From positions 1-12,480 of the forward strand of contig JAGXAV010000021.1 in assembly GCA_018971455.1 (NCBI GenBank): a DNA stretch of 12,480 bases, read 5' to 3'. The stretch is from Rhodospirillales bacterium. GTDB taxonomy: Bacteria > Pseudomonadota > Alphaproteobacteria > Acetobacterales > Acetobacteraceae. A program made the translations under genes and the position numbers. The notes under the pieces are model-generated. The model saw only the letters and a program-made list of their open reading frames with translations, was not told the DNA's origin and did no database searches. This document shows, piece after piece, positions 1 to 11,646 of the stretch (its first letter is position 1; every line of letters begins with the position of its first letter).

Positions 1-433
1 GGCCCCAGGCCTGGGCGATCATGTGGCATTCCAGCGCCACGCTGGTGGTGTAGGAATGGTCGGTGTTGTAGGGGTCGAACAGCGAGTGGCTCATCATGAA
101 GCTCGGCATGACCCTGCGGATCACGTCGACCAGGCGGAACTTCGCGGCGCGGTCGAGCTCCAGGGGGTAGTCGCCCAGATCGAAGAAATCGATGTCGTGC
201 ACATCCAGCGCGCGGGCCGCATTCTCGGCTTCCTTGCGCCGCGCGTCCTTGACCTTCTGCAGGGTGACCCCCGGCTCGCGCCAGATCTTCGCCGACTCGC
301 CGCGCTCGCCGAAGGACAGGCAGACGACGGTGACGTTGTAGCCGCGCGCCTGGTGAAGCGCGATCGCGCCGCCGGCGCGCCAGACGAAATCCGCCGCGTG
401 GGCGCTGATGACCAGGGCCGTCTTTCCGCTCAT
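1..433 (-). CDS. galB: 4-oxalomesaconate hydratase, GalB-like (PIG-L/LmbE family), 3' end outside window
   Basis: The 144 visible residues are the N-terminal part of a PIG-L/LmbE-fold protein. The zinc-binding motif of the family, normally AHPDD, reads AHAAD (residues 11-15). It is followed by FVWRAGGAIALH, then CLSFGERGES (39-48), DLGDYP (85-90) and SHSLFDPYNTDH (115-126). This combination is what I recall of GalB from Pseudomonas putida, which hydrates 4-oxalomesaconate to 4-carboxy-4-hydroxy-2-oxoadipate in gallate and protocatechuate 4,5-cleavage; it is not a deacetylase. The start at 433 follows a GGAGGAG ribosome site six bases upstream. Nearby ligC supplies another step of the same pathway, which supports the call. 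LigJ, an unrelated amidohydrolase-type enzyme, does this step in Sphingobium. The family is clear; the exact reaction is inferred from similarity by eye and from context. Confidence 0.82.
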   Translation of the reverse strand, partial: MSGKTALVISAHAADFVWRAGGAIALHQARGYNVTVVCLSFGERGESAKIWREPGVTLQKVKDARRKEAENAARALDVHDIDFFDLGDYPLELDRAAKFRLVDVIRRVMPSFMMSHSLFDPYNTDHSYTTSVALECHMIAQAWG

Positions 434-574
434 GGGCGTCTCCTCCGTGCCGGCCGTGCCGGGTTTCCTTGTGCGCGGCACTATCGGTCCACCGGTGCCG
501 CCGCTCCAGTTCGAACTCCCGCCGCCCCCATAAGATTTCGCTATAGTGGGGGTTCAACCAGGAGAGGCGGGAGG
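434..574. promoter_or_regulatory. Divergent control region between galB-like gene and lysR
   Basis: This 141-base region separates two divergent genes, the usual arrangement for a LysR-type regulator and its target. It holds a 10-base perfect palindrome AGTTCGAACT (508-517). It also holds an inverted repeat with CCCCCA and TGGGGG arms (525-552). Inside that repeat, ATA (530-532) and TAT (542-544) are symmetric and give a T-N11-A match, the core of LysR-type binding sites. TATAGT (542-547) could be a -10 element for lysR, but no convincing -35 was seen at the right distance. The sites are visible; their role is inferred. Confidence 0.5.
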
Positions 575-1795
575 ATGTGGTCCGAGATTCCAAACCTGCG
601 ACATCTGCGCGCCTTCGCGGTGGTGGCGGAAAGCCCGTCGATCAGCCGGGCGGCGCAGCAGATCCATCTTTCGCAGCCGGCGGTCAGCCAGGCGATGCTC
701 AAGCTCGAGGCGCGGATCGGCGTGCGGCTGCTCGAGGCGGGCAGTGCCGGCAAGGGCCCGACGCCGGCCGGGCGGCTGTTTCACGACCGCGTGCGCCGCG
801 CGCTCGACCGCCTCGCGCAAGGGCGGCAGGAGGCGCTGGCGGCCGAGCCGCGCAAGGCCGCCGGCGGGTTCGCACGCTTTGACGAGATGGTCACCGCGGC
901 CCAGCTGCGCGCCCTGTCGGCGGTGGCGATGGCGGGCAATTTCAGCCTCGCCGCGCGCGAGGTCGGGCTCGCGCAGCCCTCCATCCATCGCGCCGCCCGC
1001 GACCTTGAGCGCATCAGCGGTCTGGCGCTGTTTGCGCCCACGCCCCAGGGCATCGTGCTGACCCGCGCCGGCGAGGCGCTGGCGCGCAATGCCAGCCTGG
1101 CGCTGGCCGAACTGCACCAGGGCCTGGCCGAAATGGGCGAGACGCTGGGACGCGACGCGGCGCAGATCGTCATCGGCTCGTTGCCGCTGGCGCGGGCGCG
1201 GCTGCTGCCGGAGGCGATCAACCGGCTGGCGCGGGAGCGGCCGCGGACCAGCGTGCGGGTGATTGCGGCACCCTATGACGGCATGCTGCACCGGCTACGC
1301 CACGGCATCATCGATTTTCTGATCGGCGCCCTGCGCGATCCGCTGCCGATCGGCGATATCGTTCAGCAGACATTGTTCGAGGACACGCTGGCGGTGATCG
1401 CCCGGCCGGGCCATCCGCTCGCGCGGCGCGGCTCCGTCACGCAGGACGATCTGGCGGCGTTTCCCTGGGTGGTGCCCGTCGAGGAGACGCCGACGCGGGC
1501 GATCTTCAACCGGATATTCCCGCCCGCCGACGTCGCCCGCATGCCCGGCGGCATCGTCGAGACCAGCTCGCACACCCTCCTGCGCGGCCTGCTGGCAGGC
1601 AGCGACCGCCTGACCATCCTGTCGACCCGCCAGGTGGCGGACGACCTGGAGCGCGGCCTGCTCATCGCGCTGAAGGCGGAGCTGCCCTGGGCCCACCGGC
1701 CGATCGGCCTCACTTTCCGCCAGGGCTGGCGGCCGACGGCGACGCAGGCCGCCTTGCTCGGCCATATCCGGGCGGTCAGCGGCACGGGGCTATAG
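575..1795 (+). CDS. LysR-type transcriptional regulator with two tandem HTH domains
   Basis: A 406-residue protein, about 100 residues longer than a normal LysR regulator (about 300). The extra length is a second DNA-binding domain. HTH 1 spans about residues 8-66 (LRAFAVVAE, SRAAQQIHLSQPAVSQAM, LEARIGVRLLE, then TPAGRLF). HTH 2 spans about 108-168 (LRALSAVAMAGNFSLAAREV, AQPSIHRAARDLE, LALFAPTPQG, LTRAGEAL). A LysR effector-binding domain follows (about 195-400). The ATG at 575 is preferred: it follows a purine-rich GGAGAGGCGGGAGG stretch and begins just before HTH 1. The frame stays open upstream to about position 23, but that part is antisense to the galB-like gene. The gene is divergent from that gene and 93 bases before ligC, so it probably senses an intermediate of protocatechuate/gallate meta-cleavage; the effector is not visible. 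Confidence 0.9.
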   Translation: MWSEIPNLRHLRAFAVVAESPSISRAAQQIHLSQPAVSQAMLKLEARIGVRLLEAGSAGKGPTPAGRLFHDRVRRALDRLAQGRQEALAAEPRKAAGGFARFDEMVTAAQLRALSAVAMAGNFSLAAREVGLAQPSIHRAARDLERISGLALFAPTPQGIVLTRAGEALARNASLALAELHQGLAEMGETLGRDAAQIVIGSLPLARARLLPEAINRLARERPRTSVRVIAAPYDGMLHRLRHGIIDFLIGALRDPLPIGDIVQQTLFEDTLAVIARPGHPLARRGSVTQDDLAAFPWVVPVEETPTRAIFNRIFPPADVARMPGGIVETSSHTLLRGLLAGSDRLTILSTRQVADDLERGLLIALKAELPWAHRPIGLTFRQGWRPTATQAALLGHIRAVSGTGL

Positions 1796-1888: not shown

Positions 1889-2833
1889 ATGAGGATCTGC
1901 GTGGCAGGGGCGGCCGGCGCATTCGGCGCCAAGCACCTCGATGCGGTGGCCGCGATCGGCGGCGTGGAGGTCGTCTCGGTGGTTGGCGGGGCGCCCGACG
2001 ACATCGAACAGGTGGCCCGCGCGCGCGGCGTCGGCCATTGGACGAAGGACCTCGCCGAAAGCCTGGCGCGGCCGGATATCGATGCGGTCATCCTCGCCAC
2101 CCCCACGCCGCTGCACGCGGCACAGGCCATCCAGTGCATGCGCGCCGGCAAGCACGTGCTGGTGGAAATCCCCATGGCCGATTCGCTGGCCGATGCCGAG
2201 GCCGTGGTGCAGGCCCAGCGCGAGAGCGGGCTGGTGGCGATGGCCGGCCATGTCCGCCGGTTCAACCCGAGCCATCAATGGATCCACGACCGCATCCGGG
2301 CCGGGCAACTCACCCTGCAACAGATGGACGTGCAGACCTATTTCTTTCGCCGCAGCAACCTCAACGCGCTCGGTCAGCCGCGGAGCTGGACCGACCATCT
2401 GCTGTGGCACCACGCCTGCCACACTGTCGATCTGTTCCAGTATCAGACGGGCGACGCCGTCGCGCATTGCCATGGGCTGCAGGGGCCGACGCACCCCACG
2501 CTCGGCATCGCCATGGACATGAGCATCGGCATGAAGGCGCCCTCCGGGGCGATCTGCACGCTCTCGCTGTCGTTCAACAACAAGGGGCCCTTTGGCACGG
2601 TGTTCCGCTACATCTGCGACGCGGGCACCTTCATTGCCCGCTACGACGATCTCTATGACGGCGACGAGAAGCCGATCGACCTCACCGGCGTCGCGCCATC
2701 GAATAACGGGATCGAGCTGATCGACCGCGAGTTTTTCTCGGCGATCGCCGATCGGCGGGAGCCGAACGCCTCGGTTGCGCAGTGCCTGCCGGCGATGCGC
2801 ACGCTCGATCGCATCGAGCGCAGCCTGCGATAG
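1889..2833 (+). CDS. ligC: 4-carboxy-2-hydroxymuconate-6-semialdehyde dehydrogenase (LigC)
   Basis: A 314-residue Gfo/Idh/MocA-family oxidoreductase. The N-terminal Rossmann half shows GAAGAFG (7-13) for the dinucleotide and VEIPMADS (92-99), where the EKP motif of most family members is EIP, as I recall for LigC. The C-terminal half carries GHVRRFNPSHQW (120-131), QTYFFRRSN (149-157) and RSWTDHLLWHHACHTVDLF (165-183). These match the remembered LigC of Sphingobium SYK-6 closely, as do the total length and the tail with REPNASV. LigC oxidises the ring-cleavage product of protocatechuate 4,5-dioxygenase, in its hemiacetal form, to 2-pyrone-4,6-dicarboxylate using NAD(P)+; it is cytoplasmic. 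The start follows GGAGGGG at a suitable distance. The neighbouring galB-like gene acts two steps later in the same pathway. Dioxygenase, lactonase and aldolase genes are not in the window. Confidence 0.92.
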   Translation: MRICVAGAAGAFGAKHLDAVAAIGGVEVVSVVGGAPDDIEQVARARGVGHWTKDLAESLARPDIDAVILATPTPLHAAQAIQCMRAGKHVLVEIPMADSLADAEAVVQAQRESGLVAMAGHVRRFNPSHQWIHDRIRAGQLTLQQMDVQTYFFRRSNLNALGQPRSWTDHLLWHHACHTVDLFQYQTGDAVAHCHGLQGPTHPTLGIAMDMSIGMKAPSGAICTLSLSFNNKGPFGTVFRYICDAGTFIARYDDLYDGDEKPIDLTGVAPSNNGIELIDREFFSAIADRREPNASVAQCLPAMRTLDRIERSLR

Positions 2834-2888: not shown

Positions 2889-3758
2889 TTACGTATCCGT
2901 GCGCCATTTCGCCTCGAAGGCGTGGACGCGCTCGAACCCCATCAGGCGGTTCATCTCCGGGAAGGGGTAGAGGCCGGGGCCGCCGGTGCTTGTGCCGGCG
3001 GCGCGCAGATGCGCATAGACACGCTGCAGCGCGGCCGCCGCGGCGAGAAAGCCGGAGGCGGGATAGAGCGCGATCTTGAAGCCCATCGCCTCCAATTCCC
3101 GCGCGTCGAGGAAGGGTGAGCGGCCGCCTTCGACCATGTTGGCGAGCAACGGGGCGCCGGCGAAGACTTCGCCGACACGGCGCAGCTCCTCCATGGTCTC
3201 CGGGCTTTCGATGAACAGAATGTCCGCCCCGGCCCGCAGGAACATCTCGCCACGGCGCAGGGCCTCATCCAGGCCATGGGCATAGCGCGCATCGGTGCGG
3301 GCGACGATGAGGAAATCGGCGCCCGGGCGCGCGGCGACGGCGACGCGGATCTTCTGCGCGGCCTCCTCCGCCGGAATCACGCGGCGATGGGCGGTGTGGC
3401 CGCATTTCTTGGGGAATTCCTGGTCTTCCAGCTGGATTCCGGCGGCGCCGGCGGCGGCATAACGGCGCACGACGTGCTCGACATTCAGCAGGCCGCCATA
3501 GCCGGTGTCGCCATCGGCGATGAAGGGCAGATCGACCGCGCCGGCGATGCAGCGCACCCGCTCCAGCATCTCTCCGGCGCCGGCGAGGCCGGCATCGGGC
3601 AGGCCGAGGGCCGAGGCGACCACGCCGTAGCCGGTCATGTAGAGCCCCTGGAATCCGGCTTGCGCGGCAAGCTTGGCGGAGATGCCGTCATAGACACCCG
3701 GAAGAGTGACGATGCCTGGCGCGCGCAGCAATTCGCGCATTCCTGTCCCGGTCGGCAT
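2889..3758 (-). CDS. Isocitrate lyase/PEP mutase family C-C bond lyase
   Basis: A 289-residue TIM-barrel protein of the ICL/PEPM superfamily. Visible motifs are LPGVYDGISAKLAAQAGF (19-36), the metal site ADGDTGYGG (81-89), the active-site loop EDQEFPKKCGH (111-121) and IARTDA (151-156). FIESPE (182-187) and LANMVEGGRSP (205-215) follow. The cysteine in KKCGH marks C-C lyases such as isocitrate, 2-methylisocitrate and 2,3-dimethylmalate lyase, rather than true phosphonate mutases. Length excludes classical isocitrate lyase (over 400 residues). The likely product is pyruvate or glyoxylate plus a short acid, but the substrate cannot be read from sequence; oxaloacetate hydrolase is another option. 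The start at 3758 is chosen because GGAAAGGAA lies eight bases upstream; in-frame ATGs further out have no ribosome site. The gene is divergent from the YrdC-transporter operon and shares its control region, which suggests one pathway. Confidence 0.85.
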   Translation of the reverse strand: MPTGTGMRELLRAPGIVTLPGVYDGISAKLAAQAGFQGLYMTGYGVVASALGLPDAGLAGAGEMLERVRCIAGAVDLPFIADGDTGYGGLLNVEHVVRRYAAAGAAGIQLEDQEFPKKCGHTAHRRVIPAEEAAQKIRVAVAARPGADFLIVARTDARYAHGLDEALRRGEMFLRAGADILFIESPETMEELRRVGEVFAGAPLLANMVEGGRSPFLDARELEAMGFKIALYPASGFLAAAAALQRVYAHLRAAGTSTGGPGLYPFPEMNRLMGFERVHAFEAKWRTDT

Positions 3759-3799: not shown

Positions 3800-3829
3800 T
3801 TGACGTTCCTGTTCGGCGCTGCGTAGAGT
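3800..3829 (+). promoter_or_regulatory. Predicted sigma70-type promoter for the YrdC-MFS-YrdC operon
   Basis: TTGACG (3800-3805) and TAGAGT (3824-3829) are separated by 18 bases, giving a start near 3836 and a leader of about 40 bases before the ATG at 3878. The operator-like palindrome at 3833-3842 would lie over the transcription start. The same TTGACG box and 18-base spacing recur before the MaoC operon at 8484. Confidence 0.55.
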
Positions 3830-3877: not shown

Positions 3878-4573
3878 ATGTCTGACATCGCTGCGCCGGC
3901 CGCACCAGAGAGGGTGGCCGCGGATGCCGGGATCGTGCTGGATGCCATGCAGGCAGGGGGCGTTGCCATCCTGCCGCTCGATGTCGCCTATGCCGTCATT
4001 GGAACCACCGAGGCGGCGATTCGCCGCATCTTCGCCGTCAAGGCCCGCAGCTATGAAAAGCCCTCGGGCATGTTCGCGACCTGGGAGATGTCGCGCGATC
4101 TGCATGTGATGCCGCCGGAGCGGCACGCGATCGCGCGGGTGATCGTCGAGGAATACGGCCTGCCCTTCTCGATCGTGGCACCGTTTCACGCCGGGCACGA
4201 CATGCTGCGCGGCGTCGATCCGTTCGTGCTGGCGAGCTCGACCAAGGCGGGCACGCTGGACATGCTGATCAATGCCGGGCCCTGGCACAACGCGGTGGCG
4301 CGCCTGGCACTTGCCCGCGGTGTCTGCGTGTTCGGCTCCTCGGCCAATCGTTCCCTGACCGGGAGCAAATACCGCCTCACCGATATCGAGCCGGAGCTGC
4401 GTGCCGCCGCCGCCGTGGGCATCGATGGCGGCACGGCGAAATATGCCAACGCCGCCGGCCTGTCCAGCACCATCATCGATTTCCGCGATTTCCGCTTCAT
4501 CCGCCGCGGTGTGTGTTGCGAGCAGCTGACAACGATTTTCTGCGACCGCTTCGACATCACCTTGCGGGACTGA
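3878..4573 (+). CDS. YrdC/Sua5-domain protein (first of two)
   Basis: A 231-residue protein that is almost entirely one YrdC (TsaC/Sua5) domain. Visible motifs are LPLDVAYAVIG (32-42, in place of the usual PTDTVYGLG), VKARSYEKP (54-62, matching the K-x-R-x-x-x-K-P nucleotide/acyl-adenylate motif), GSSAN (153-157) and a C-terminal SSTIID...FIRRG block (196-211). Canonical TsaC makes threonylcarbamoyl-AMP from threonine, bicarbonate and ATP for tRNA t6A37. A housekeeping role is unlikely here. The gene starts a catabolic operon with a transporter and a second YrdC protein, and its substrate-side motifs differ from TsaC. Retained K55, R57, K61, P62, S155 and N157 suggest it can still bind ATP and perhaps form an acyl- or carbamoyl-adenylate. 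The ATG at 3878 follows GGAGGGAGA. Fold call firm; reaction unknown. Confidence 0.85.
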   Translation: MSDIAAPAAPERVAADAGIVLDAMQAGGVAILPLDVAYAVIGTTEAAIRRIFAVKARSYEKPSGMFATWEMSRDLHVMPPERHAIARVIVEEYGLPFSIVAPFHAGHDMLRGVDPFVLASSTKAGTLDMLINAGPWHNAVARLALARGVCVFGSSANRSLTGSKYRLTDIEPELRAAAAVGIDGGTAKYANAAGLSSTIIDFRDFRFIRRGVCCEQLTTIFCDRFDITLRD

Positions 4574-4648
4574 CGCCCGCCGCCTGCCAACGCCGATCAC
4601 GCAATCAGGCCGGGCGCAGCGCGCGGCCATCAGGGAAGGAGAACGACC

Positions 4649-6022
4649 ATGGTCAACGCGGGGGCCCGCCTCGACCGACTGCCGATTTCCGCGTTCCACT
4701 ACAGTCTTCTGGGGTTGATCGGGGCCGGCATGTTCCTCGATGCCTTTGAAATCTATCTGCAAGGCGGGGTGCTGGCGACGCTGGTGGCGACCCATTGGTC
4801 CACGCCCGCGTTGAATGCCGATTTCATTTCGTCGACATTTGCCGGCATGGTGGTGGGCGCCTGGCTGGCCGGCATCACCGGCGACCGGTTCGGTCGGCGC
4901 TTTGCCTATCAGGTCAATCTCCTGGTCTTCGGGCTCGCCGCGCTGGCCGGGGCGGTGGCACCCTCGATGAGCTGGCTGATCGCCGCCCGCTTTGTCATGG
5001 GCCTCGGCCTGGGGGCGGAGATTGTCGTCGGCTACGTCACCATCAGCGAGTTCGTCCCGCCGCTCAGCCGTGGCCGCTGGGGCACCGGGCTCGCCATCGT
5101 CACCAACTCGGCCCTGTTCGTCTCGGCGCTGGTGGCGCGGGTCGTCATTCCCAATTTCGGCTGGCGGTGGATGTTCGTCATCGCCGGCATCGGCGCGCTG
5201 TTCGTCTGGATCCTGCGCCGCAAGATGCCCGAATCGCCGCGCTGGCTGGAGTCCAAGGGGCGCACCGAGGAAGCCGAGGCGGTGATGTCCGCCATTGAGC
5301 GCAGGGTCGCGCCGAAGGGCGGGCTGCCGGCGCCGGTGGCGGGCCTTGCGCAGCCGCGCGGCGACTCGGTGTTCTCGCTGTTCGCCCCGGGGATGGTGAT
5401 GCGCACCATCATCGGCAGTGTCGTGCTGATCGCGCTCAACACGGCCGTCTATGGCTTCATCGCCTTCCTGCCGACCTTCATGGTCAAGCAGGGCATGAGT
5501 GTCGTGACCTCGCTGAACTACGCAACATTGATGATGTTCGGCGGGCCGGTTGGCGCGCTGATCGGATTCTGGCTGGCCGACCGGCTCGGGCGGAAGAACA
5601 GCATCGTGCTGTTCTCCCTGCTGGCGGTGGCGTTCGGCGCCATCTATCCGCAGACCAGCAGCCCGGCGATGGTGACGCTGTTCGGCTTCCTGCTGATCAC
5701 CGCAGTCTATGTGCTGGTGGCGGTGGCCTGGGCGCTCTACGTGCCGGAGCTGTTCCCGACGGTCATCCGCATGCGCGGCGCCGGCTTCTGCAACACCGCC
5801 GGGCGTCTGATGACCATCCTCACGCCACAGCTCATCGTGCCGCTATTCGTCTCCGCCGGTGTGAACGGCGTGATCGGCCTGATCGCGGCGCTGCTTCTGC
5901 TGCAGGCCTTGCTGGTCGGGCTGTTCGGGGTGGAGACGCGCGAGAAGCCGCTCGAGGCGCTGACGCCCTGGCAGGAGGGCGACGGCCAGGCGACCGCGGT
6001 CTCGAACGCGGGCGCCGGCTGA
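4649..6022 (+). CDS. MFS transporter, probable organic/aromatic acid:H+ symporter
   Basis: A 457-residue inner-membrane protein with the pattern of a 12-helix major facilitator. The N half has FLDAFEIYLQGG (29-40), like the D-G-F-D motif in helix 1 of aromatic acid:H+ symporters. Motif A GITGDRFGRR (75-84) sits between helices 2 and 3, and helix 4 has ARFVMGLGLGAE (113-124). PESPRWLESKGRTEEAE (194-210) begins the central cytoplasmic loop, as in the sugar-porter/acid-symporter branch. The C half repeats motif A as WLADRLGRK. The ATG at 4649 is preceded by AAGGAG at seven bases. It lies 75 bases after the first YrdC gene and 8 bases before the GTG of the second, so all three are probably cotranscribed. 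Uptake of the acid degraded by neighbouring enzymes is the natural role; the substrate is inferred only as a carboxylate. Confidence 0.9.
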   Translation: MVNAGARLDRLPISAFHYSLLGLIGAGMFLDAFEIYLQGGVLATLVATHWSTPALNADFISSTFAGMVVGAWLAGITGDRFGRRFAYQVNLLVFGLAALAGAVAPSMSWLIAARFVMGLGLGAEIVVGYVTISEFVPPLSRGRWGTGLAIVTNSALFVSALVARVVIPNFGWRWMFVIAGIGALFVWILRRKMPESPRWLESKGRTEEAEAVMSAIERRVAPKGGLPAPVAGLAQPRGDSVFSLFAPGMVMRTIIGSVVLIALNTAVYGFIAFLPTFMVKQGMSVVTSLNYATLMMFGGPVGALIGFWLADRLGRKNSIVLFSLLAVAFGAIYPQTSSPAMVTLFGFLLITAVYVLVAVAWALYVPELFPTVIRMRGAGFCNTAGRLMTILTPQLIVPLFVSAGVNGVIGLIAALLLLQALLVGLFGVETREKPLEALTPWQEGDGQATAVSNAGAG

Positions 6023-6030
6023 GGCGGGCC

Positions 6031-6753
6031 GTGGCGCCGCTCTTCAATATCGCGGCGGACGCGGCGCGCGCGTTTGCCGTGCTCGAGGGCGGTGGCATCG
6101 CCATCGTGCCGAACACCATCGGCTACTCCATCCTCGGAGGATCACCGGCGGCCCTGGCGCGCATCTTTCGCACCAAGGGCCGCGCGGCCGGCAAGCGCAA
6201 CGCGCTCGTCGCCAATGCCGCGTGGCAGCGCGCGCTGCATGTATGCAGTTCGCGCGGCCAGGAGATCATCGAGGCGCTGACAGTGGGGTACGACCTTCCC
6301 CTTGGCGCCATCGCGCCCTTGCGCGGCGAGCATCCGGCGATTGCCGGGTGCGATCCGCAGATGCTCGCCGACAGCACGCGCGAGGGCACGATCGCCATGT
6401 TGCTGAATGCGGGACCGTTCCATGCGGCGCTGACGGCGCTCAGCTTTGCCGCGGGGCGGCTGCTCTTCGGCTCATCGGCCAATCTGACGCTGAGCGGCAC
6501 GCGGTTCTGCGTGGAGGAGATCCAGCCGGACATCCTTGCGATCGCCGACATCGTCATCGATCACGGGCTGCAGCGCTATCACCCGTATGCGGCGTCCTCC
6601 ACTCTGCTCGATGTGGAGACGCTGCGGGTGGTGCGGCACGGCTCGTGCTTCGAAGACATCGCCTATGTCCTGCACCGGCATTTCGGCATAGAGCTGGCGC
6701 GGCGCGGCGACGGTGCGGCGCCTGTCAGCGCGGAACCTCCCCGGCCAGGGTGA
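6031..6753 (+). CDS. YrdC/Sua5-domain protein (second of two, diverged motifs)
   Basis: A 240-residue single-domain YrdC-like protein, recognisably a paralogue of the product at 3878-4573. It keeps GSSAN (147-151), SSTLLD (189-194) and VVRHG (200-204). The first motif reads VPNTIGYSILG (26-36), so the aspartate of P-T-D-T-x-Y is gone. The second reads TKGRAAGKR (48-56), keeping both lysines and the arginine but losing the proline. The blocks LLNAGPFHAAL here and LINAGPWHNAV in the partner align, and are not part of any TsaC motif I recall. The GTG start at 6031 has GAGG six bases upstream, overlapping the transporter stop, so the two are probably coupled. The last 29 bases overlap the convergent dioxygenase gene. 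It may form a heteromer with the first YrdC protein; function unknown. Confidence 0.82.
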   Translation: MAPLFNIAADAARAFAVLEGGGIAIVPNTIGYSILGGSPAALARIFRTKGRAAGKRNALVANAAWQRALHVCSSRGQEIIEALTVGYDLPLGAIAPLRGEHPAIAGCDPQMLADSTREGTIAMLLNAGPFHAALTALSFAAGRLLFGSSANLTLSGTRFCVEEIQPDILAIADIVIDHGLQRYHPYAASSTLLDVETLRVVRHGSCFEDIAYVLHRHFGIELARRGDGAAPVSAEPPRPG

Positions 6754-7570
6754 TTCGGTGCATGACGCGGCGATGGCCGTGATAGTCGTTGATCGGGTTG
6801 TGCAGCGTGCAACGATTGTCCCAGAACGCCAGAGAGCCGGGCTGCCAGCGGAAGCGGCAGGTGAATTCCGGGCGCACCTGGTGGGCGAACAGGTAGGAGA
6901 GCAACGGCGCGCTCTCTTCGGCCGTCATGCCGGCGAAGCCCTCCGTATGGGCGAAGTTGACGTAGAGGGCTCGCTGGCCGGTCTCGGGGTGGGTGCGCAC
7001 CACCGGGTGTTCGGCATGATATTCCGTGCGGGCGTCATCGCGCGCATTGTCGCGCACGCGGTCCTCGCGCGTCTTGGTGACGTCGGCCTTGGCGGAACTG
7101 TTGACGGCGCAAAGACCGTCGAGCATGCGGCGCATGCCGTCGGACAATGCCTCGTAGGCGCGGGTGGTGCTGGCGAACAGGGTGTCGCCGCCGAAAGGTG
7201 GCACTTCGCGCGCCACCAGCATGGTGGCCATGGGCGGAATGTCGAGATAGGCCGTGTCGGAATGCCAGACGCCGCCGAAATTGCTGCGCTCATGCTCGAG
7301 CTTCACCACCGGGATGATGTCCGGAAAATCGGGCAGGCCGCGCACGAAGGGATATTCCAAGACCTGGCCGAAGCGGCGGGCGAGGGCGAGGAAGCGGGAA
7401 GGCGGCAGATCCTGGTTACGAAAGAACACCACGCCGTGGGCCAGCCAGATGCGGCGGATTTCGGCGATCAGCGCATCGCTTGGATCGGCGGCAAGATCGA
7501 CGCCGGAAATCTCGGCGCCCAGCGCGCCTGCGATCGGGCTCGTGGTAAGGGTGTTGGTCTGTGCCAGCAT
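6725..7570 (-). CDS. TauD/TfdA-family 2-oxoglutarate/Fe(II)-dependent dioxygenase
   Basis: A 281-residue enzyme of normal family length. The facial triad is visible: H103 and D105 in VWHSDTAY, and H257 in WDNRCTLHNP. RRVMHR (267-272) provides the arginines that bind the 2-oxoglutarate carboxylate, spaced from the histidine as in E. coli TauD. GAEISGVDL (18-26) and GVVFFRNQ (46-53) are also typical. Family members couple 2-oxoglutarate decarboxylation to hydroxylation, often breaking a C-S, C-O or C-N bond. The ATG at 7570 is chosen over an upstream GTG at 7639 because GGAGG (7581-7577) lies six bases before it, and the GTG lies inside the preceding gene. It follows the CitE-like gene by 32 bases and is probably cotranscribed. 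A role in releasing or hydroxylating the acid that feeds the CoA module is inferred; the substrate is not identifiable. Confidence 0.88.
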   Translation of the reverse strand: MLAQTNTLTTSPIAGALGAEISGVDLAADPSDALIAEIRRIWLAHGVVFFRNQDLPPSRFLALARRFGQVLEYPFVRGLPDFPDIIPVVKLEHERSNFGGVWHSDTAYLDIPPMATMLVAREVPPFGGDTLFASTTRAYEALSDGMRRMLDGLCAVNSSAKADVTKTREDRVRDNARDDARTEYHAEHPVVRTHPETGQRALYVNFAHTEGFAGMTAEESAPLLSYLFAHQVRPEFTCRFRWQPGSLAFWDNRCTLHNPINDYHGHRRVMHRITLAGEVPR

Positions 7571-7602
7571 CGGCAACCTCCCGGCATGATCGGCGAACTG
7601 CA

Positions 7603-8481
7603 TCACACCGGCCGCGCGCGCGCAAGGATGCGCCGGCACCCCTCCACCAGCGGGCGCTCGACAAGGCGGCCATCGAGCAGGCAGGCCCGCTCGCTGGCGG
7701 CGGTGAAGGCATCGATGACCCGTCGGGCCTGGGCGATCTCATCGGGCGTCGGCATGAGGGCGGCGTGGATGGCGGGGATCTGGCGCGGATGGATGGCCGC
7801 GCGCGCGGTGAAGCCGAGGGCAAAGCTGCGCGCCATCTCTGCGGACTCGCCTGCGAAATCGTCAAGCCGGACCCACGGCATGTCCACCGCGGGCTTGCGC
7901 GCGGCCCCGCAGGCCTGCACCAGACGCGCGCGGGCATTGACCAGCGGATCCCATTGCAGCTGCACGCCAAGATCAAGTGCCAGGTCCGCACCACCGAACA
8001 TCAGGAAGGACAGGCGCGGCGAGGCGCGCGCAGCGCGCGCGGCCTCCTCCAGCCCGGCGGCCGTCTCGATCAGCGCGCCGATCTCGCCGGCGATTCCGGC
8101 CTCGTCCATCACATCGCCGGTGAGCGCGATGTCCTCGGGCATGGCCTTGGGCAGCATGAGGCCGGCGAGCGCGTGCGGCGCCCGTTCCATCAGCGCGACC
8201 GCGGCCAGCAGGTCGGCAAGGCCGAGGCGGCTGCGCACGGTGTTGATGCGCAGCAGCACCGGCGGGCCGGCGGCGGGGAGGGCGGCCAGCGCGGCGAGGG
8301 CCGCGGCGCGTGCGGCGCATTTCTCGTCGGGCGGCACGGCGTCCTCGAGATCGACGATCACCGCGTCAGGGCCGGCCGCCAGGGCCTTGGCGATGCGCTC
8401 GGGGCGGTTGCCCGGCACGAAGAGGTAGGAGCGCCGCATCGCGGGCATGTGTTGCGGGCCGGGCTGTTGTGGCTGGTTCAT
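7603..8481 (-). CDS. CitE-like CoA-ester lyase (HpcH/HpaI family), probable citramalyl-CoA or malyl-CoA lyase
   Basis: A 292-residue TIM-barrel lyase of the CitE/HpcH family. It shows RSYLFVPGNRPERIAKA (16-32), VDLEDAV (43-49), LLRINT (76-81), LPKA (110-113), the metal ligand region LIET (137-140), FGGADLALDLG (162-172) and GFTARAAIHPRQI (223-235). Such stand-alone enzymes cleave citramalyl-CoA, malyl-CoA or related esters to acetyl-CoA plus pyruvate or glyoxylate. With MaoC hydratase and class III CoA-transferase genes adjacent, citramalyl-CoA lyase as in itaconate degradation is the leading call. The start is uncertain. The ATG at 8481 has no ribosome site but lies eight bases after a predicted -10 box, so a leaderless mRNA is possible. 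ATGs at 8448 and 8439 would start nearer the usual family N terminus and also lack a ribosome site. Confidence 0.86.
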   Translation of the reverse strand: MNQPQQPGPQHMPAMRRSYLFVPGNRPERIAKALAAGPDAVIVDLEDAVPPDEKCAARAAALAALAALPAAGPPVLLRINTVRSRLGLADLLAAVALMERAPHALAGLMLPKAMPEDIALTGDVMDEAGIAGEIGALIETAAGLEEAARAARASPRLSFLMFGGADLALDLGVQLQWDPLVNARARLVQACGAARKPAVDMPWVRLDDFAGESAEMARSFALGFTARAAIHPRQIPAIHAALMPTPDEIAQARRVIDAFTAASERACLLDGRLVERPLVEGCRRILARARPV

Positions 8482-8483
8482 GG

Positions 8484-8513
8484 TTGACGGGCATATGTCC
8501 GTACATGTTAGAT
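8484..8513 (+). promoter_or_regulatory. Predicted sigma70-type promoter for the MaoC-CoA-transferase operon
   Basis: TTGACG (8484-8489) and TTAGAT (8508-8513) are separated by 18 bases, the same -35 box and spacing as at 3800-3829. The expected start is near 8520, giving a leader of about 36 bases to the ATG at 8556. The palindrome at 8496-8505 sits in the spacer. Confidence 0.5.
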
Positions 8514-8518
8514 TGCAA
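8490..8518 (-). promoter_or_regulatory. Predicted promoter for the CitE-like lyase and dioxygenase
   Basis: On the minus strand TTGCAA (8518-8513) and TATGCC (8495-8490) are separated by 17 bases, with the palindrome at 8496-8505 in the spacer. Transcription would start at about 8483, right at the ATG at 8481. The -10 match is only moderate. Confidence 0.4.
8496..8505. promoter_or_regulatory. Putative operator TGTCCGTACA, copy 2
   Basis: TGTCCGTACA matches the site at 3833-3842 in nine of ten positions and differs by one base from the palindrome TGTACGTACA. The surrounding ATGT...ACAT extends the symmetry to 12 bases. It lies in the spacer of both predicted divergent promoters, which suits a repressor. 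Confidence 0.5.
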
Positions 8519-8555
8519 GCCGGGATTGAAATTGCCGGCAGGGCGGGGGAAGCGA

Positions 8556-9047
8556 ATGGACGCGATGATGGCAACGGCGCAGGCGCACGGCCGCTTCTTC
8601 GAGGATTTCAAGGTCGGCGATGTCTATCGTCACTGGCCGGGCCGGACCATCACCGAGGCCGACAACATCAACTTCAGCCTGATGACGATGAACCGCCACC
8701 CGATGCATTGCGATGCCGCCTTTGCCGCGCGCTCGGAGTTCGGCAAGCCGCTCGTCAATAGCGGGCTGACGCTGGCCATCGTGCTCGGCATGACCGTCGA
8801 TGACGTCAGCCTCAACGCCGTGGCCAATCTCGGCTGGAAGGAAATCCGGCTGACCGCGCCGGTGTTTCCGGGCGACACCATCTACGCGCGCTCGGAAGTG
8901 CTGGAGGTGCGGGAGAGCCGCTCGCGTCCGCACCAGGGCATCGTCACCACCCGCACGCAGGGGTTCAAGGCCGACGAGACGGTGTTCCTGACCTTCGAGC
9001 GGATGAGTCTGGTGGCACGGCGGGCAGGGAAGGGAGAGGGCGCATGA
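8556..9047 (+). CDS. MaoC-family hydratase, probable itaconyl-/mesaconyl-CoA-type hydratase
   Basis: A 163-residue single-hotdog MaoC dehydratase. Visible blocks are FFEDFKVGDVY (14-24), the active-site region TITEADNINFSLMTMNRHPMH (31-51), FGKPLVNSGLT (62-72) and the PVFPGDTIYARSEV strand (102-115). In R-specific enoyl-CoA hydratases the catalytic pair is D-x4-H within a TGD..P.H motif. Here the aspartate position is N46 and the histidine H51; D36 is a nearby acidic residue. I recall this variant from MaoC proteins acting on branched dicarboxylyl-CoA esters. Hydration of itaconyl-CoA or mesaconyl-CoA to citramalyl-CoA would feed the CitE-like lyase next door. The ATG at 8556 has GGGGGAA upstream; upstream in-frame codons are antisense to the CitE-like gene. 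Its stop overlaps the next gene by four bases, so it heads a tightly coupled operon. Confidence 0.85.
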   Translation: MDAMMATAQAHGRFFEDFKVGDVYRHWPGRTITEADNINFSLMTMNRHPMHCDAAFAARSEFGKPLVNSGLTLAIVLGMTVDDVSLNAVANLGWKEIRLTAPVFPGDTIYARSEVLEVRESRSRPHQGIVTTRTQGFKADETVFLTFERMSLVARRAGKGEGA

Positions 9048-10471
9048 ACGACATGCCGGACGGGGCCGCGGCCATCGCGGCGAAACTGGCCGATCCGTCG
9101 GCGCGACTGGCGGAGTTCGCTGCCGGATTGCGGCTGAGCGATATCCCCGAGCGGGTGCGCTTGCGCGCGGTGCATCACATTCTTGATGCGGTCGGCATTG
9201 CCTTCGTCTCCTCGCGCCAGGATTTCGCCCACCGCACATTGACCGCCATTGGCGGACTGGCCGGCGCGGGAAGCGTGCCGATCCTCGGTCTGCCCGCCCG
9301 TCTGCCGCCGCGCGACGCGGCGCTGGTGAATGGCGTTCTGTGCCACGGACTGGATTTCGACGACACGCATCTGGGCGGTGTCGTGCACGCCAGCGCCAGC
9401 GCCTTTCCCGCCGCGCTGTCGGCGGCGATTCTGGCGGGTGCATCCGGTGAGGCCCTGCTGCTCGCCTACATCATCGCCATCGAGGTCACATCGCGCATTG
9501 GCGCCGTCGGACGGGGCGCCTTCCACGCGCGCGGCTTTCATCCGACCGGGGTTGCCGGCGTGTTCGGTGCGGCACTCGCCGCGTCGCGTCTGTTCGGCCT
9601 GACGGCCCGCGAAATGCAGGCCACCCAGGGGATCGCCTTGTCGATGGCCTCGGGCAGCCTCGAATTTCTCGAAGATGGTGCCTGGAACAAGCGGATGCAT
9701 CCGGGCTGGGCCGCGCAGGCCGGATTGACGGCGGCGGCACTCGGCCGGCAGGGCTTCGTCGGTGCCACCCGGCCCTATGCCGGGCGCTACGGCCTGTACA
9801 ACCTTTATACCTCGGGCGGCCTGGCGGCGTGCGACCTTGCGGCGGCAACCGCGGGGCTTGGCAGCGTGTGGGAGCTGGAACGCACCGCCATCAAGCCTTA
9901 TCCCGCCTGCCACTTCACGCATGCCAGCATCGATGCGGCGCTGCTGCTGCGCGAGGCCGGCCTGCGCGCCGAGCAGGTGGCCTCCATCGACGCGCGGATG
10001 CCCGAACAGGTGATTGCGGTGGTGTGCGAACCGCAGGCCAGCAAGCGGCACCCGGCCAACACCTACGACGCCCAGTTCAGCATCCCCTTCCTGGTGTCCG
10101 CCGCCCTGGTGCGCGGGCGCCTGTCGCTCGCCGAGCTCGATGCGATCGATGATCCGGAGATTCTCGCCCTGGCCGGACGGGTCGGATATTCCGTCGATCC
10201 CAGCTCGCCATTCCCCCGCAGCTACTCGGGAGAGCTGGTGGTGACGACGACCGATGGCCGCACCCTGCGCCAGCGCGAGGAGGTCAATCGCGGCGCGCCG
10301 GAGCGACCGCTGAGCAATGAGGACATCCTGGACAAGTACAACGACAATGCGGCGATCGCACTGAACCCGGACGGCGCCGCACGGGTCTGCCGCGCCGTGC
10401 TGGAACTTGCCGCCGCACCCACCGCCGCCGGTTTTGCCGCCACGCTGGCGAATGAAGGACCACGCGCATGA
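9044..10471 (+). CDS. MmgE/PrpD-family protein
   Basis: A 475-residue member of the MmgE/PrpD family, which contains 2-methylcitrate dehydratase, cis-aconitate decarboxylase and iminodisuccinate epimerase. Visible blocks are LCHGLDFDDTHLGGVVHAS (99-117), GFHPTGVAGVFGAALAA (164-180), KRMHPGWAAQAG (216-227) and KPYPACHFTHASIDA further on; length is normal for the family. The reaction cannot be assigned from sequence. In this operon it could dehydrate, decarboxylate or isomerise a tricarboxylate or citramalate-like acid before CoA activation. A PrpD-like gene is, as I recall, also present in the itaconate cluster of Pseudomonas aeruginosa. The ATG overlaps the MaoC stop (ATGA), and its own stop overlaps the next start in the same way, so translation is probably coupled along the operon. 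Confidence 0.86.
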   Translation: MNDMPDGAAAIAAKLADPSARLAEFAAGLRLSDIPERVRLRAVHHILDAVGIAFVSSRQDFAHRTLTAIGGLAGAGSVPILGLPARLPPRDAALVNGVLCHGLDFDDTHLGGVVHASASAFPAALSAAILAGASGEALLLAYIIAIEVTSRIGAVGRGAFHARGFHPTGVAGVFGAALAASRLFGLTAREMQATQGIALSMASGSLEFLEDGAWNKRMHPGWAAQAGLTAAALGRQGFVGATRPYAGRYGLYNLYTSGGLAACDLAAATAGLGSVWELERTAIKPYPACHFTHASIDAALLLREAGLRAEQVASIDARMPEQVIAVVCEPQASKRHPANTYDAQFSIPFLVSAALVRGRLSLAELDAIDDPEILALAGRVGYSVDPSSPFPRSYSGELVVTTTDGRTLRQREEVNRGAPERPLSNEDILDKYNDNAAIALNPDGAARVCRAVLELAAAPTAAGFAATLANEGPRA

Positions 10472-11646
10472 ACGTCATCACCGACATCGAACCGCCCAGC
10501 GCCGAGCAGGAGCAGGAACGGCTCGTGCTCGCCTCGGTCGATCGCTTCCTCGAGCGGCATGTCCGCCCGGTCGCCATGAAATTGGAGCATGACGACGAGT
10601 ATCCCGCGGAGATCGTCGAGCGGATGAAGGAGCTCGGCCTGTTCGGCGCCGTCATTGGGGCCGAGTATGGCGGGCTGGGATTGCGCCCGAGCACCTATGT
10701 CCGGATCATCGAGCGGATTGCCGCCGTGTGGATGTCGGTCTCCGGCATCATCAACTCGCACCTCATCATGGCGCGCATCGTCGAGCGCATGGGCACGCCG
10801 GCGCAGAAGCAGGCCTTCCTGCCGCGCTTCGCCTCCGGCGAGCTGCGCGGGGGGCTGGCGCTGACGGAGCCGGATTGCGGCACGGACCTGCAGGCAATCC
10901 GCACGACCGCCCGGCGCGTCGGCGACGACTATATCGTCAACGGCACGAAGACCTGGATTTCCAACGGCATCGAAGGCGGCTGCTTTGCGTTGCTGGTGAA
11001 GACGGACCCGACGGCCGAGCCGCGCCACAAGGGCATGAGCATGCTGCTGGCCGAAAAGGGGCCGGGCTTTCGCGTCGGGCGCAAGCTGGAGAAGCTCGGT
11101 TACAAGGGCATCGACAGCGCCGAGCTGGTCTTCGAGGATTACCGCGTGCCGGCGGACCGGCTGATCGGCGGGGTGGAGGGGCGCGGCATGATGTGTGCCA
11201 TCTCCGGGCTCGAGCTCGGCCGCGTCAATGTCGCGGCGCGCGGCGTCGGAATCGCGCAGGCGGCGCTCGATGAGGCGGTGCGCTACAGCCAGCAGCGGCG
11301 AACTTTCGGCAAACCCATCTGCGAGCACCAGGCGGTGGCCCTGAAGCTCGGCGACATGGCGACGCGGGTGACGGCGGCGCGGCTGCTGACCGAGAATGCC
11401 GCGCGCGCGCTCGACCGCGACGAGCGCAGCGACTACGAGGCCGGCATGGCCAAGCTGTTCGCGACGGAAGCGGCACTGGAGAACGCCACCGAGGCGATGC
11501 GCATCTTCGGCGGCTACGGCTACAGCAAGGAGTTCGTCGTCGAGCGGCTGTATCGGGACGCACCGCTGCTTGTCATCGGCGAGGGCACGAACGAGATGCA
11601 GCGCCTGCTCATCGCCCGCCGCCTGATCGAACGCAATCGGATCTGA
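10468..11646 (+). CDS. Acyl-CoA dehydrogenase
   Basis: A 392-residue flavoprotein with the full three-domain acyl-CoA dehydrogenase layout. It has an N-terminal helical domain with FGAVIGAEYGGLG (54-66), GGLALTEPDCGTD (128-140) in the middle beta domain and TKTWISNG (159-166) for FAD. The C-terminal helical domain has YSQQRRTFGKPI, then RIFGGYGYSKEF and GEGTNEMQR. E372 in this last motif sits at the catalytic-base position of medium- and short-chain enzymes. It would oxidise a saturated acyl-CoA to the 2,3-enoyl-CoA, passing electrons to ETF. In this operon a methylsuccinyl- or other branched dicarboxylyl-CoA, giving the substrate of the MaoC hydratase, is the reasonable guess. Its start overlaps the PrpD-like stop, and the CoA-transferase follows by eight bases. 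Confidence 0.92.
   Translation: MNVITDIEPPSAEQEQERLVLASVDRFLERHVRPVAMKLEHDDEYPAEIVERMKELGLFGAVIGAEYGGLGLRPSTYVRIIERIAAVWMSVSGIINSHLIMARIVERMGTPAQKQAFLPRFASGELRGGLALTEPDCGTDLQAIRTTARRVGDDYIVNGTKTWISNGIEGGCFALLVKTDPTAEPRHKGMSMLLAEKGPGFRVGRKLEKLGYKGIDSAELVFEDYRVPADRLIGGVEGRGMMCAISGLELGRVNVAARGVGIAQAALDEAVRYSQQRRTFGKPICEHQAVALKLGDMATRVTAARLLTENAARALDRDERSDYEAGMAKLFATEAALENATEAMRIFGGYGYSKEFVVERLYRDAPLLVIGEGTNEMQRLLIARRLIERNRI

Follow-up and report, generated by a model that had tools for sequence, protein, structure and literature searches.

Two subfamilies of single-domain YrdC proteins, distinct by sequence from TsaC/Sua5 and often encoded beside catabolic genes

Background

In the known YrdC systems the YrdC protein acts together with a transferase of the TsaD/Kae1 type. 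TsaC-type enzymes, which take part in the synthesis of N6-threonylcarbamoyladenosine (t6A) in tRNA, adenylate N-carboxy-L-threonine (PMC9654439). In their active site the KxR and SxN motifs bind ATP, and Thr33, Ser181 and Arg195 contact threonine (PMC10321239). HypF and TobZ/GdmN form carbamoyl-adenylate from carbamoyl phosphate, the use of which is described for GdmN (PMC9633730), and their YrdC domain is fused to a Kae1-like domain. The Pfam family PF01300 also holds paralogues other than TsaC, of which YciO has been analysed and was found to be linked to rnm and to have a conserved basic patch (PMC12506659). Here we describe two further members of PF01300, YrdC-A and YrdC-B, encoded on either side of a major facilitator superfamily (MFS) transporter gene in a contig of a Rhodospirillales bacterium (JAGXAV010000021.1). 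The window analysed is the whole contig of 12,480 bases; the host genome (3.1 Mb in 721 contigs) is 85.8% complete.

With TsaC/Sua5, A and B share the YrdC fold, the KxR/SxN ATP tetrad and the equivalents of Ser181 and Arg195. They differ in the loss, in most copies, of Thr33, in the replacement of the AVRxP Arg by Leu, in a NAGxxH signature, in the absence of a SUA5 domain, in their often catabolic gene neighbours and in their coexistence with a canonical copy. In contrast to HypF and TobZ/GdmN, both are single-domain proteins, and no Kae1 gene was present among the named families of their neighbours. YciO resembles them as a PF01300 paralogue outside t6A synthesis whose function is unsolved, but it appears to occupy a separate branch, and our alignment gives the E. 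coli protein RxL and SxM in place of KxR and SxN. The top solved structural match of both proteins was the uncharacterised SMU.1377c of Streptococcus mutans (PDB 3l7v; Z 23.1 for A and 22.8 for B), which was also the best sequence match to B (E 4.4e-05); it differs from A and B in being a Gram-positive protein with 17-22% identity to them. The A/B group is apparently undescribed so far: no description was found in the literature searched, and the excerpt of PMC12506659 does not mention the group.

Results and discussion

YrdC-A (3878..4573, plus strand, 231 amino acids) and YrdC-B (6031..6753, plus strand, 240 amino acids) matched PF01300 with 36.2 and 34.7 bits, respectively (cut-off 25.1), covering the profile nearly end to end, and this was the sole Pfam match in either protein. 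With the L-threonylcarbamoyladenylate synthase model TIGR00057 they scored 32.2 and 28.1 bits, both far short of the cut-off of 123.2. The two sequences share 37% identity across 206 aligned positions. The AlphaFold2 models had high mean predicted local distance difference test values (95.4 for A and 91.1 for B), and protein searches (E up to 0.001) returned 969 matches for A and 1006 for B, two sets that may overlap; A and B are thus real proteins. Among the best 120 matches of each search were proteins of an Acidisphaera assembly, found with both queries, and several relatives that databases label TsaC, SUA5 or YrdC.

In the tree, whose construction the initial annotation had called for, YrdC-A and YrdC-B and their relatives formed a clade separate from Sua5, TsaC, HypF and YciO (support 100/99), within which the B subfamily was supported with 100/100. 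E. coli YciO, a single long row, was placed beside but outside A+B (98/88). Judged by sequence, A and B are a distinct subfamily of TsaC-like enzymes, made up of two subfamilies with clear signatures. Many A and B genes carry the name of a tRNA-modification enzyme although sequence, tree and gene context disagree with it.

Active-site residues were compared in an alignment of 102 A rows, 100 of them with letters at the relevant columns, and 22 B rows. KxR, SxN, the Arg195 equivalent (100/100 A, 22/22 B) and a Ser at TsaC position 138 were invariant in both subfamilies, and the Ser181 equivalent was retained in 98 of 101 A and in all 22 B rows. At the position of Thr33, whose register was checked through the 23-residue distance to the KxR lysine (K56), Thr was present in 29/29 Sua5 rows, Leu in 92/100 A rows and Met in 16/22 B rows; the window copies have Leu34 (YrdC-A) and Asn (YrdC-B). 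A second position, the Arg of AVRxP, was Arg in 30/30 Sua5 rows and in E. coli TsaC and YciO, Leu in 97/100 A and 22/22 B rows, and Met in E. coli HypF. In A and B the Pro two residues further on is replaced by Asn, which lies inside the NAGxxH motif. The YrdC domain of E. coli HypF also lacks Thr33 and the conserved Arg in this alignment. Because KxR and SxN are invariant and Thr33 and the Arg are replaced, the ATP and carbamate chemistry looks retained and the amino-acid site altered, perhaps toward that of HypF.

These residues bear on the explanation that A and B are now non-enzymatic or regulatory proteins, binding small molecules or RNA and akin to the unsolved YciO group. YciO retains the fold, fails to replace TsaC in vivo and has trace threonylcarbamoyl-adenylate activity, and its active site is largely conserved by structure-based alignment (PMC12506659); the diverse neighbourhoods of A and B (see below) would fit such a role as well. 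However, invariance of KxR, SxN and the Arg195 equivalent would be unexpected without catalysis or ATP binding, and in our alignment E. coli YciO itself departs from the first two motifs (see above). We regard a non-enzymatic role as rather improbable.

The host contains a separate canonical Sua5 gene, present as a fragment that lies at the end of a contig (113 bits). The canonical-copy test covered 23 genomes with A or B, namely 22 of the 31 class-sample genomes with matches (G068, G102, G197, G231, G295, G336, G348, G402 and G403 were omitted) plus G002. A canonical Sua5/TsaC gene apart from A and B was found in 22 of the 23, host included, with 113-203 bits; the A and B copies that Pfam detected there score 25-58 bits. 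In the remaining genome (G245) B was present and no canonical copy was found. A PF01300 match was present in 34 of 36 genomes of the host's family. The separate Sua5, the ATP residues kept with Thr33 lost, and the catabolic neighbours together indicate that A and B are probably not the housekeeping t6A enzyme, in agreement with the initial annotation, which had assigned the pair to another task and had asked for a separate tsaC. That A and B are extra L-threonylcarbamoyladenylate synthases able to make the t6A precursor would be consistent with the shared fold and ATP motifs, with the database names and with G245, where B might be a replacement unless the assembly has a gap. Against this stand the TIGR00057 scores, the loss of Thr33, the separate clade and the canonical gene in nearly all genomes tested, which make it highly improbable.

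Gene neighbourhoods were examined within 6 kb of A or B at 121 non-identical loci. Isochorismatase-like genes occurred at 39 loci, CaiB at 30, MmgE and amidase genes at 27 each, HMGL/CitE at 26, HyuAB at 25, PEPM at 20, MaoC at 8 and importer families at 50; 105 loci had an importer or a member of the hydrolase/lyase set nearby. In functional terms, many A and B relatives are encoded next to hydrolases of amides, hydantoins or lactams, dehydratases, C-C lyases, CoA enzymes and carboxylate importers. The proposed recurrence beside ICL/PEPM, TauD or CitE-MaoC genes was borne out in part, by the PEPM, HMGL/CitE and MaoC counts and by TauD at 5/91 A loci and 1/22 B loci. An isochorismatase-like gene adjoined A on the same strand at 27 of the 91 A loci, and the nearest solved relative of one such protein was N-carbamoylsarcosine amidohydrolase (161.9 bits). 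The nearest model of one neighbouring HyuA was caprolactamase alpha, without reaching the cut-off. At 16 loci (without deduplication) TctC was the adjoining gene in the same orientation, an adjoining carboxylate importer being a frequent theme of B, and of A in Betaproteobacteria; TRAP genes lay near A or B at L015, L017, L020, L021 and L035. Genes were called by an amino-acid-composition heuristic, which missed or merged some open reading frames: in L081, L121 and L122 it took a hidden Markov model (HMM) on open frames to recover A or B, no YrdC was labelled in L020, L045 and, despite a profile match, L232 (G959), and L088, L076 and L087 hold pieces.

For comparison, 20 canonical Sua5/TsaC loci were taken from the 23 genomes of the canonical-copy test (G000, G230 and G245 were omitted). 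The 27 test loci were hand-picked from L047 and L120-L153; the window, L134, L135, L149-L152 and L154-L156 lay outside the set. An isochorismatase, MmgE, PEPM or amidase gene was present within 6 kb at 16/27 A/B loci versus 0/20 control loci (p 9e-6); related genomes and loci are not independent in these counts and p values. Taken singly and uncorrected, isochorismatase (p 0.0025), CaiB (0.025), MmgE and PEPM (0.031 each) were enriched at A/B loci.

We tentatively favour the reading that A and B are adenylate-forming enzymes recruited to peripheral catabolism, with the carbamate chemistry kept and the substrate changed. The carbamate step of this proposal comes from the known YrdC mechanism and the catabolic link from gene context. 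The window MFS protein would import the acid, and A and B would each bind Mg-ATP and a carbamate from the imported compound (an amine or amide nitrogen bearing CO2, or carbamate itself), yielding carbamoyl-adenylate and pyrophosphate. The carbamoyl-adenylate could then serve the opening, transfer or hydrolysis of the nitrogen group, and the carbon skeleton would be taken over by the PEPM lyase or by the module of coenzyme A (CoA)-transferase, dehydrogenase, hydratase and CitE. Were A and B to form carbamoyl- or acyl-adenylates out of imported acids, they would represent a catabolic activation chemistry new to the YrdC superfamily, and a universal translation-related enzyme would have been recruited to metabolism.

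Several observations weigh against this reading. As to the active site, some B copies have Thr at position 33, and HypF forms a very long branch, which makes its aligned residues uncertain; the AVRxP Arg presumably holds the threonine carboxylate. The host search for TsaD/Kae1 gave a single, fragmentary match (66 bits) and hence no dedicated Kae1 partner. An amide-hydrolase link was not seen in the window: one isochorismatase-like query found no close homologue in the 85.8% complete host genome (best 19.8 bits), and all four Hydantoinase_B matches of the host are on other contigs. Contexts also vary widely. At 16 of the 121 loci both the importer families and the hydrolase/lyase set were missing, and in L125 and L127 YrdC-B adjoins genes that we take, from their sequence, to be CobS/CobT-like, a non-catabolic context. 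Taken one by one, the control comparison showed no significant enrichment of HyuAB (p 0.086), amidase (0.063), HMGL/CitE (0.21), MaoC or importers (0.68 each), and acyl-CoA dehydrogenase occurred more often at the control loci (12/20 versus 4/27).

A wider formulation, which we hold possible but doubtful, is that A and B belong to an undescribed branch of the t6A superfamily whose dedicated role in catabolism is to make carbamoyl- or acyl-adenylates, the two paralogues differing in specificity. HyuA, presumably an actin-like ATPase-fold protein, could where present fill the transferase/hydrolase part of TsaD/Kae1.

Alternatively, A and B might adenylate the imported acid's own carboxylate, the acyl-AMP going on to a CoA thioester or to transfer with no carbamate involved. 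The carboxylate importers next door (TctC, TRAP and the window MFS protein) would suit this, as would the loss of Thr33 and a Variovorax YrdC pair that has TctC on one side and a CoA ligase on the other, with LeuCD and PEPM (see below). Known YrdC proteins, however, adenylate carbamates rather than plain carboxylates (PMC9654439 and general knowledge), the step would be redundant in the many clusters that already have CoA ligases or CoA-transferases, and importer families overall were not enriched (5/27 versus 2/20 control loci). We consider acyl-AMP formation unlikely.

The two YrdC subfamilies are common, and the strict A-MFS-B order is rare. Scanning genome contigs with the A alignment gave 81 confirmed stretches, of which 80 loci were kept, with titles from Alpha-, Beta- and Gammaproteobacteria. 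The B model matched 31 of 385 genomes of the class (E up to 1e-15, A copies included) and 2 of 398 genomes of the phylum sample, host included; the A model matched 17 of 397 genomes of the family. The class-sample counts of A and B that follow come from draft genomes, with the B model alone and at most seven candidates scored per genome. Strong B was present in 19 genomes, 13 of which also had A; A and B were neighbours in 6 of these and on different contigs in 7. Among the 26 genomes with clear A or B, 7 had A without B and 6 had B without A, and 5 further genomes had weak, distant matches alone. Other carriers by record are Xanthobacter tagetidis, Neorhizobium alkalisoli, Aquibium sp. A9E412 and Polynucleobacter campilacus.

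A and B were linked in 11 of the 121 non-identical loci, spread over several families (eight from gene calls, the remainder via HMM); the other loci had one YrdC type only within the stretch examined. Five layouts were seen: A-MFS-B in the window and L047 (G002) only, tandem A-B in L081 and L082, tandem B-A in L035, A-LeuC-LeuD-PEPM-B in L084, and divergent A and B in L120-L124, where the B of L122 (G314) has one in-frame stop. L048 carries A and the same MFS family and has no B on its 5.7-kb contig; relatives of the window MFS gene were found only in the host, G002 and L048. The ordered YrdC-MFS-YrdC set, put forward initially as a unit that might recur, is not supported as such a unit and turned up in just two genomes. 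The presence in both best-120 lists of 11 contigs of at least 5 kb, equated by size and including the window's relative, suggests that there are more linked pairs.

The initial annotation had also considered that the pair might act as one heteromeric enzyme. Linkage in five layouts and the full motifs in both proteins would fit an obligate heteromer of A and B. The 7 genomes with A without B and the 6 with B without A make this obligate form unlikely, and in 7 of the 13 genomes with both, which are drafts, A and B are on different contigs; we judge it to be very unlikely. Since each occurs without the other, A and B probably serve two different substrates or steps, and linked copies might form an A-B heteromer.

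Two adjacent YrdC genes, both B-scoring, were found in Variovorax paradoxus VAI-C (L190, plasmid CP063167.1), flanked by TctC/PEPM and by a CoA ligase with LeuCD. Here a divergent GntR gene is followed by an operon-like run of esterase, TctC, PEPM, TctC, YrdC, YrdC, CoA ligase, LeuC, LeuD and a PGA_cap/CapA protein. The LeuC and LeuD of L084 cluster with the annotated leuC and leuD of this operon.

Organisation of the window and other loci

The open reading frames and profile matches confirmed that the two YrdC genes flank the MFS gene (4649..6022, plus strand; PF00083, PF07690) on the same strand. The nearest NCBIfam model of the transporter was the aromatic acid/H+ symport family (TIGR00895; 173.7 bits, below the cut-off of 418.55), which agrees with an acid-type transporter. 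The gaps are 75 bp between YrdC-A and MFS and 8 bp between MFS and YrdC-B, purine-rich, ribosome-binding-like stretches precede YrdC-A and MFS, and a consensus scan found one possible sigma-70-type promoter at 3800..3829 (plus strand; 9 of 12 positions, 1 found versus 0.3 expected). From these small gaps, ribosome-binding-like stretches and the promoter-like match, a single transcript of YrdC-A, MFS and YrdC-B is predicted as likely.

The unit is divergent, as first noted, from a gene for an ICL/PEPM-type C-C lyase (2889..3755, minus strand; PF13714, 162.9 bits; start uncertain, 3755 or 3782), whose nearest solved relatives include petal death protein, 2,3-dimethylmalate lyase and methylisocitrate lyase. 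Downstream lie an associated TauD-family dioxygenase gene (6725..7639, minus; PF02668, 237.8 bits) and a CitE/RipC-like lyase gene (7603..8574, minus; PF03328), followed on the plus strand by genes for a MaoC-type, RipB/Ich-like hydratase (8505..9047, start uncertain; PF01575 and PF19315 matched on 8550-9047), an MmgE/PrpD-family protein (9044..10471; PF03972, PF19305), an acyl-CoA dehydrogenase (10468..11646; PF00441, PF02770, PF02771) and a class III (CaiB-type) CoA-transferase truncated by the contig end (11655..12480; PF02515, 297.9 bits). The nearest solved structures of the MmgE/PrpD protein are IDS-epimerase and cis-aconitate decarboxylase. The CaiB, MaoC and CitE genes recall itaconate degradation (RipA/B/C, Ict-Ich-Ccl), but the RipB (NF038241, 180.9 bits, cut-off 340) and RipC (NF038242, 214.3 bits, cut-off 375) scores stay below threshold, and the window has the MmgE and acyl-CoA dehydrogenase genes in addition. 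The MaoC-MmgE-acyl-CoA dehydrogenase-CaiB set of the window recurs by A or B in the order MmgE-MaoC-acyl-CoA dehydrogenase-CaiB in L011, L121-L124 and L225, the last with a divergent CitE gene as well.

At the other end of the window, a LysR-type regulator (23-1795, plus strand) has two HTH_1 stretches ahead of the substrate-binding domain, its true start lying well inside the frame. It is followed by a Gfo/Idh/MocA oxidoreductase (1889-2833, plus strand; C-terminal domain PF19858, 296 bits), which we take to resemble the 4-carboxy-2-hydroxymuconate semialdehyde dehydrogenase LigC.

Other arrangements were noted at single groups of loci. L220-L224, L226-L229 and L231 have a two-gene unit TctC -> YrdC-B, near most of which lies a gene that is presumably malate-dehydrogenase-like. 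A conserved run in L027, L030, L034, L036 and L039 comprises UPRTase, YrdC-A, a membrane protein (mX), an AtzE-like amidase (below cut-off), in some loci a DehI-like gene, a small membrane protein (mY), a gene that we take from its sequence to be enoyl-CoA hydratase-like, and GATase; mX and mY had no Pfam match. A gene run of L150 (7044-10444) holds two YrdC genes, one distantly A-like and the other with a more canonical score (118.7 bits), together with aconitase-like and HMGL-like genes and one gene of the TENA/haem-oxygenase-like family typed in L152.

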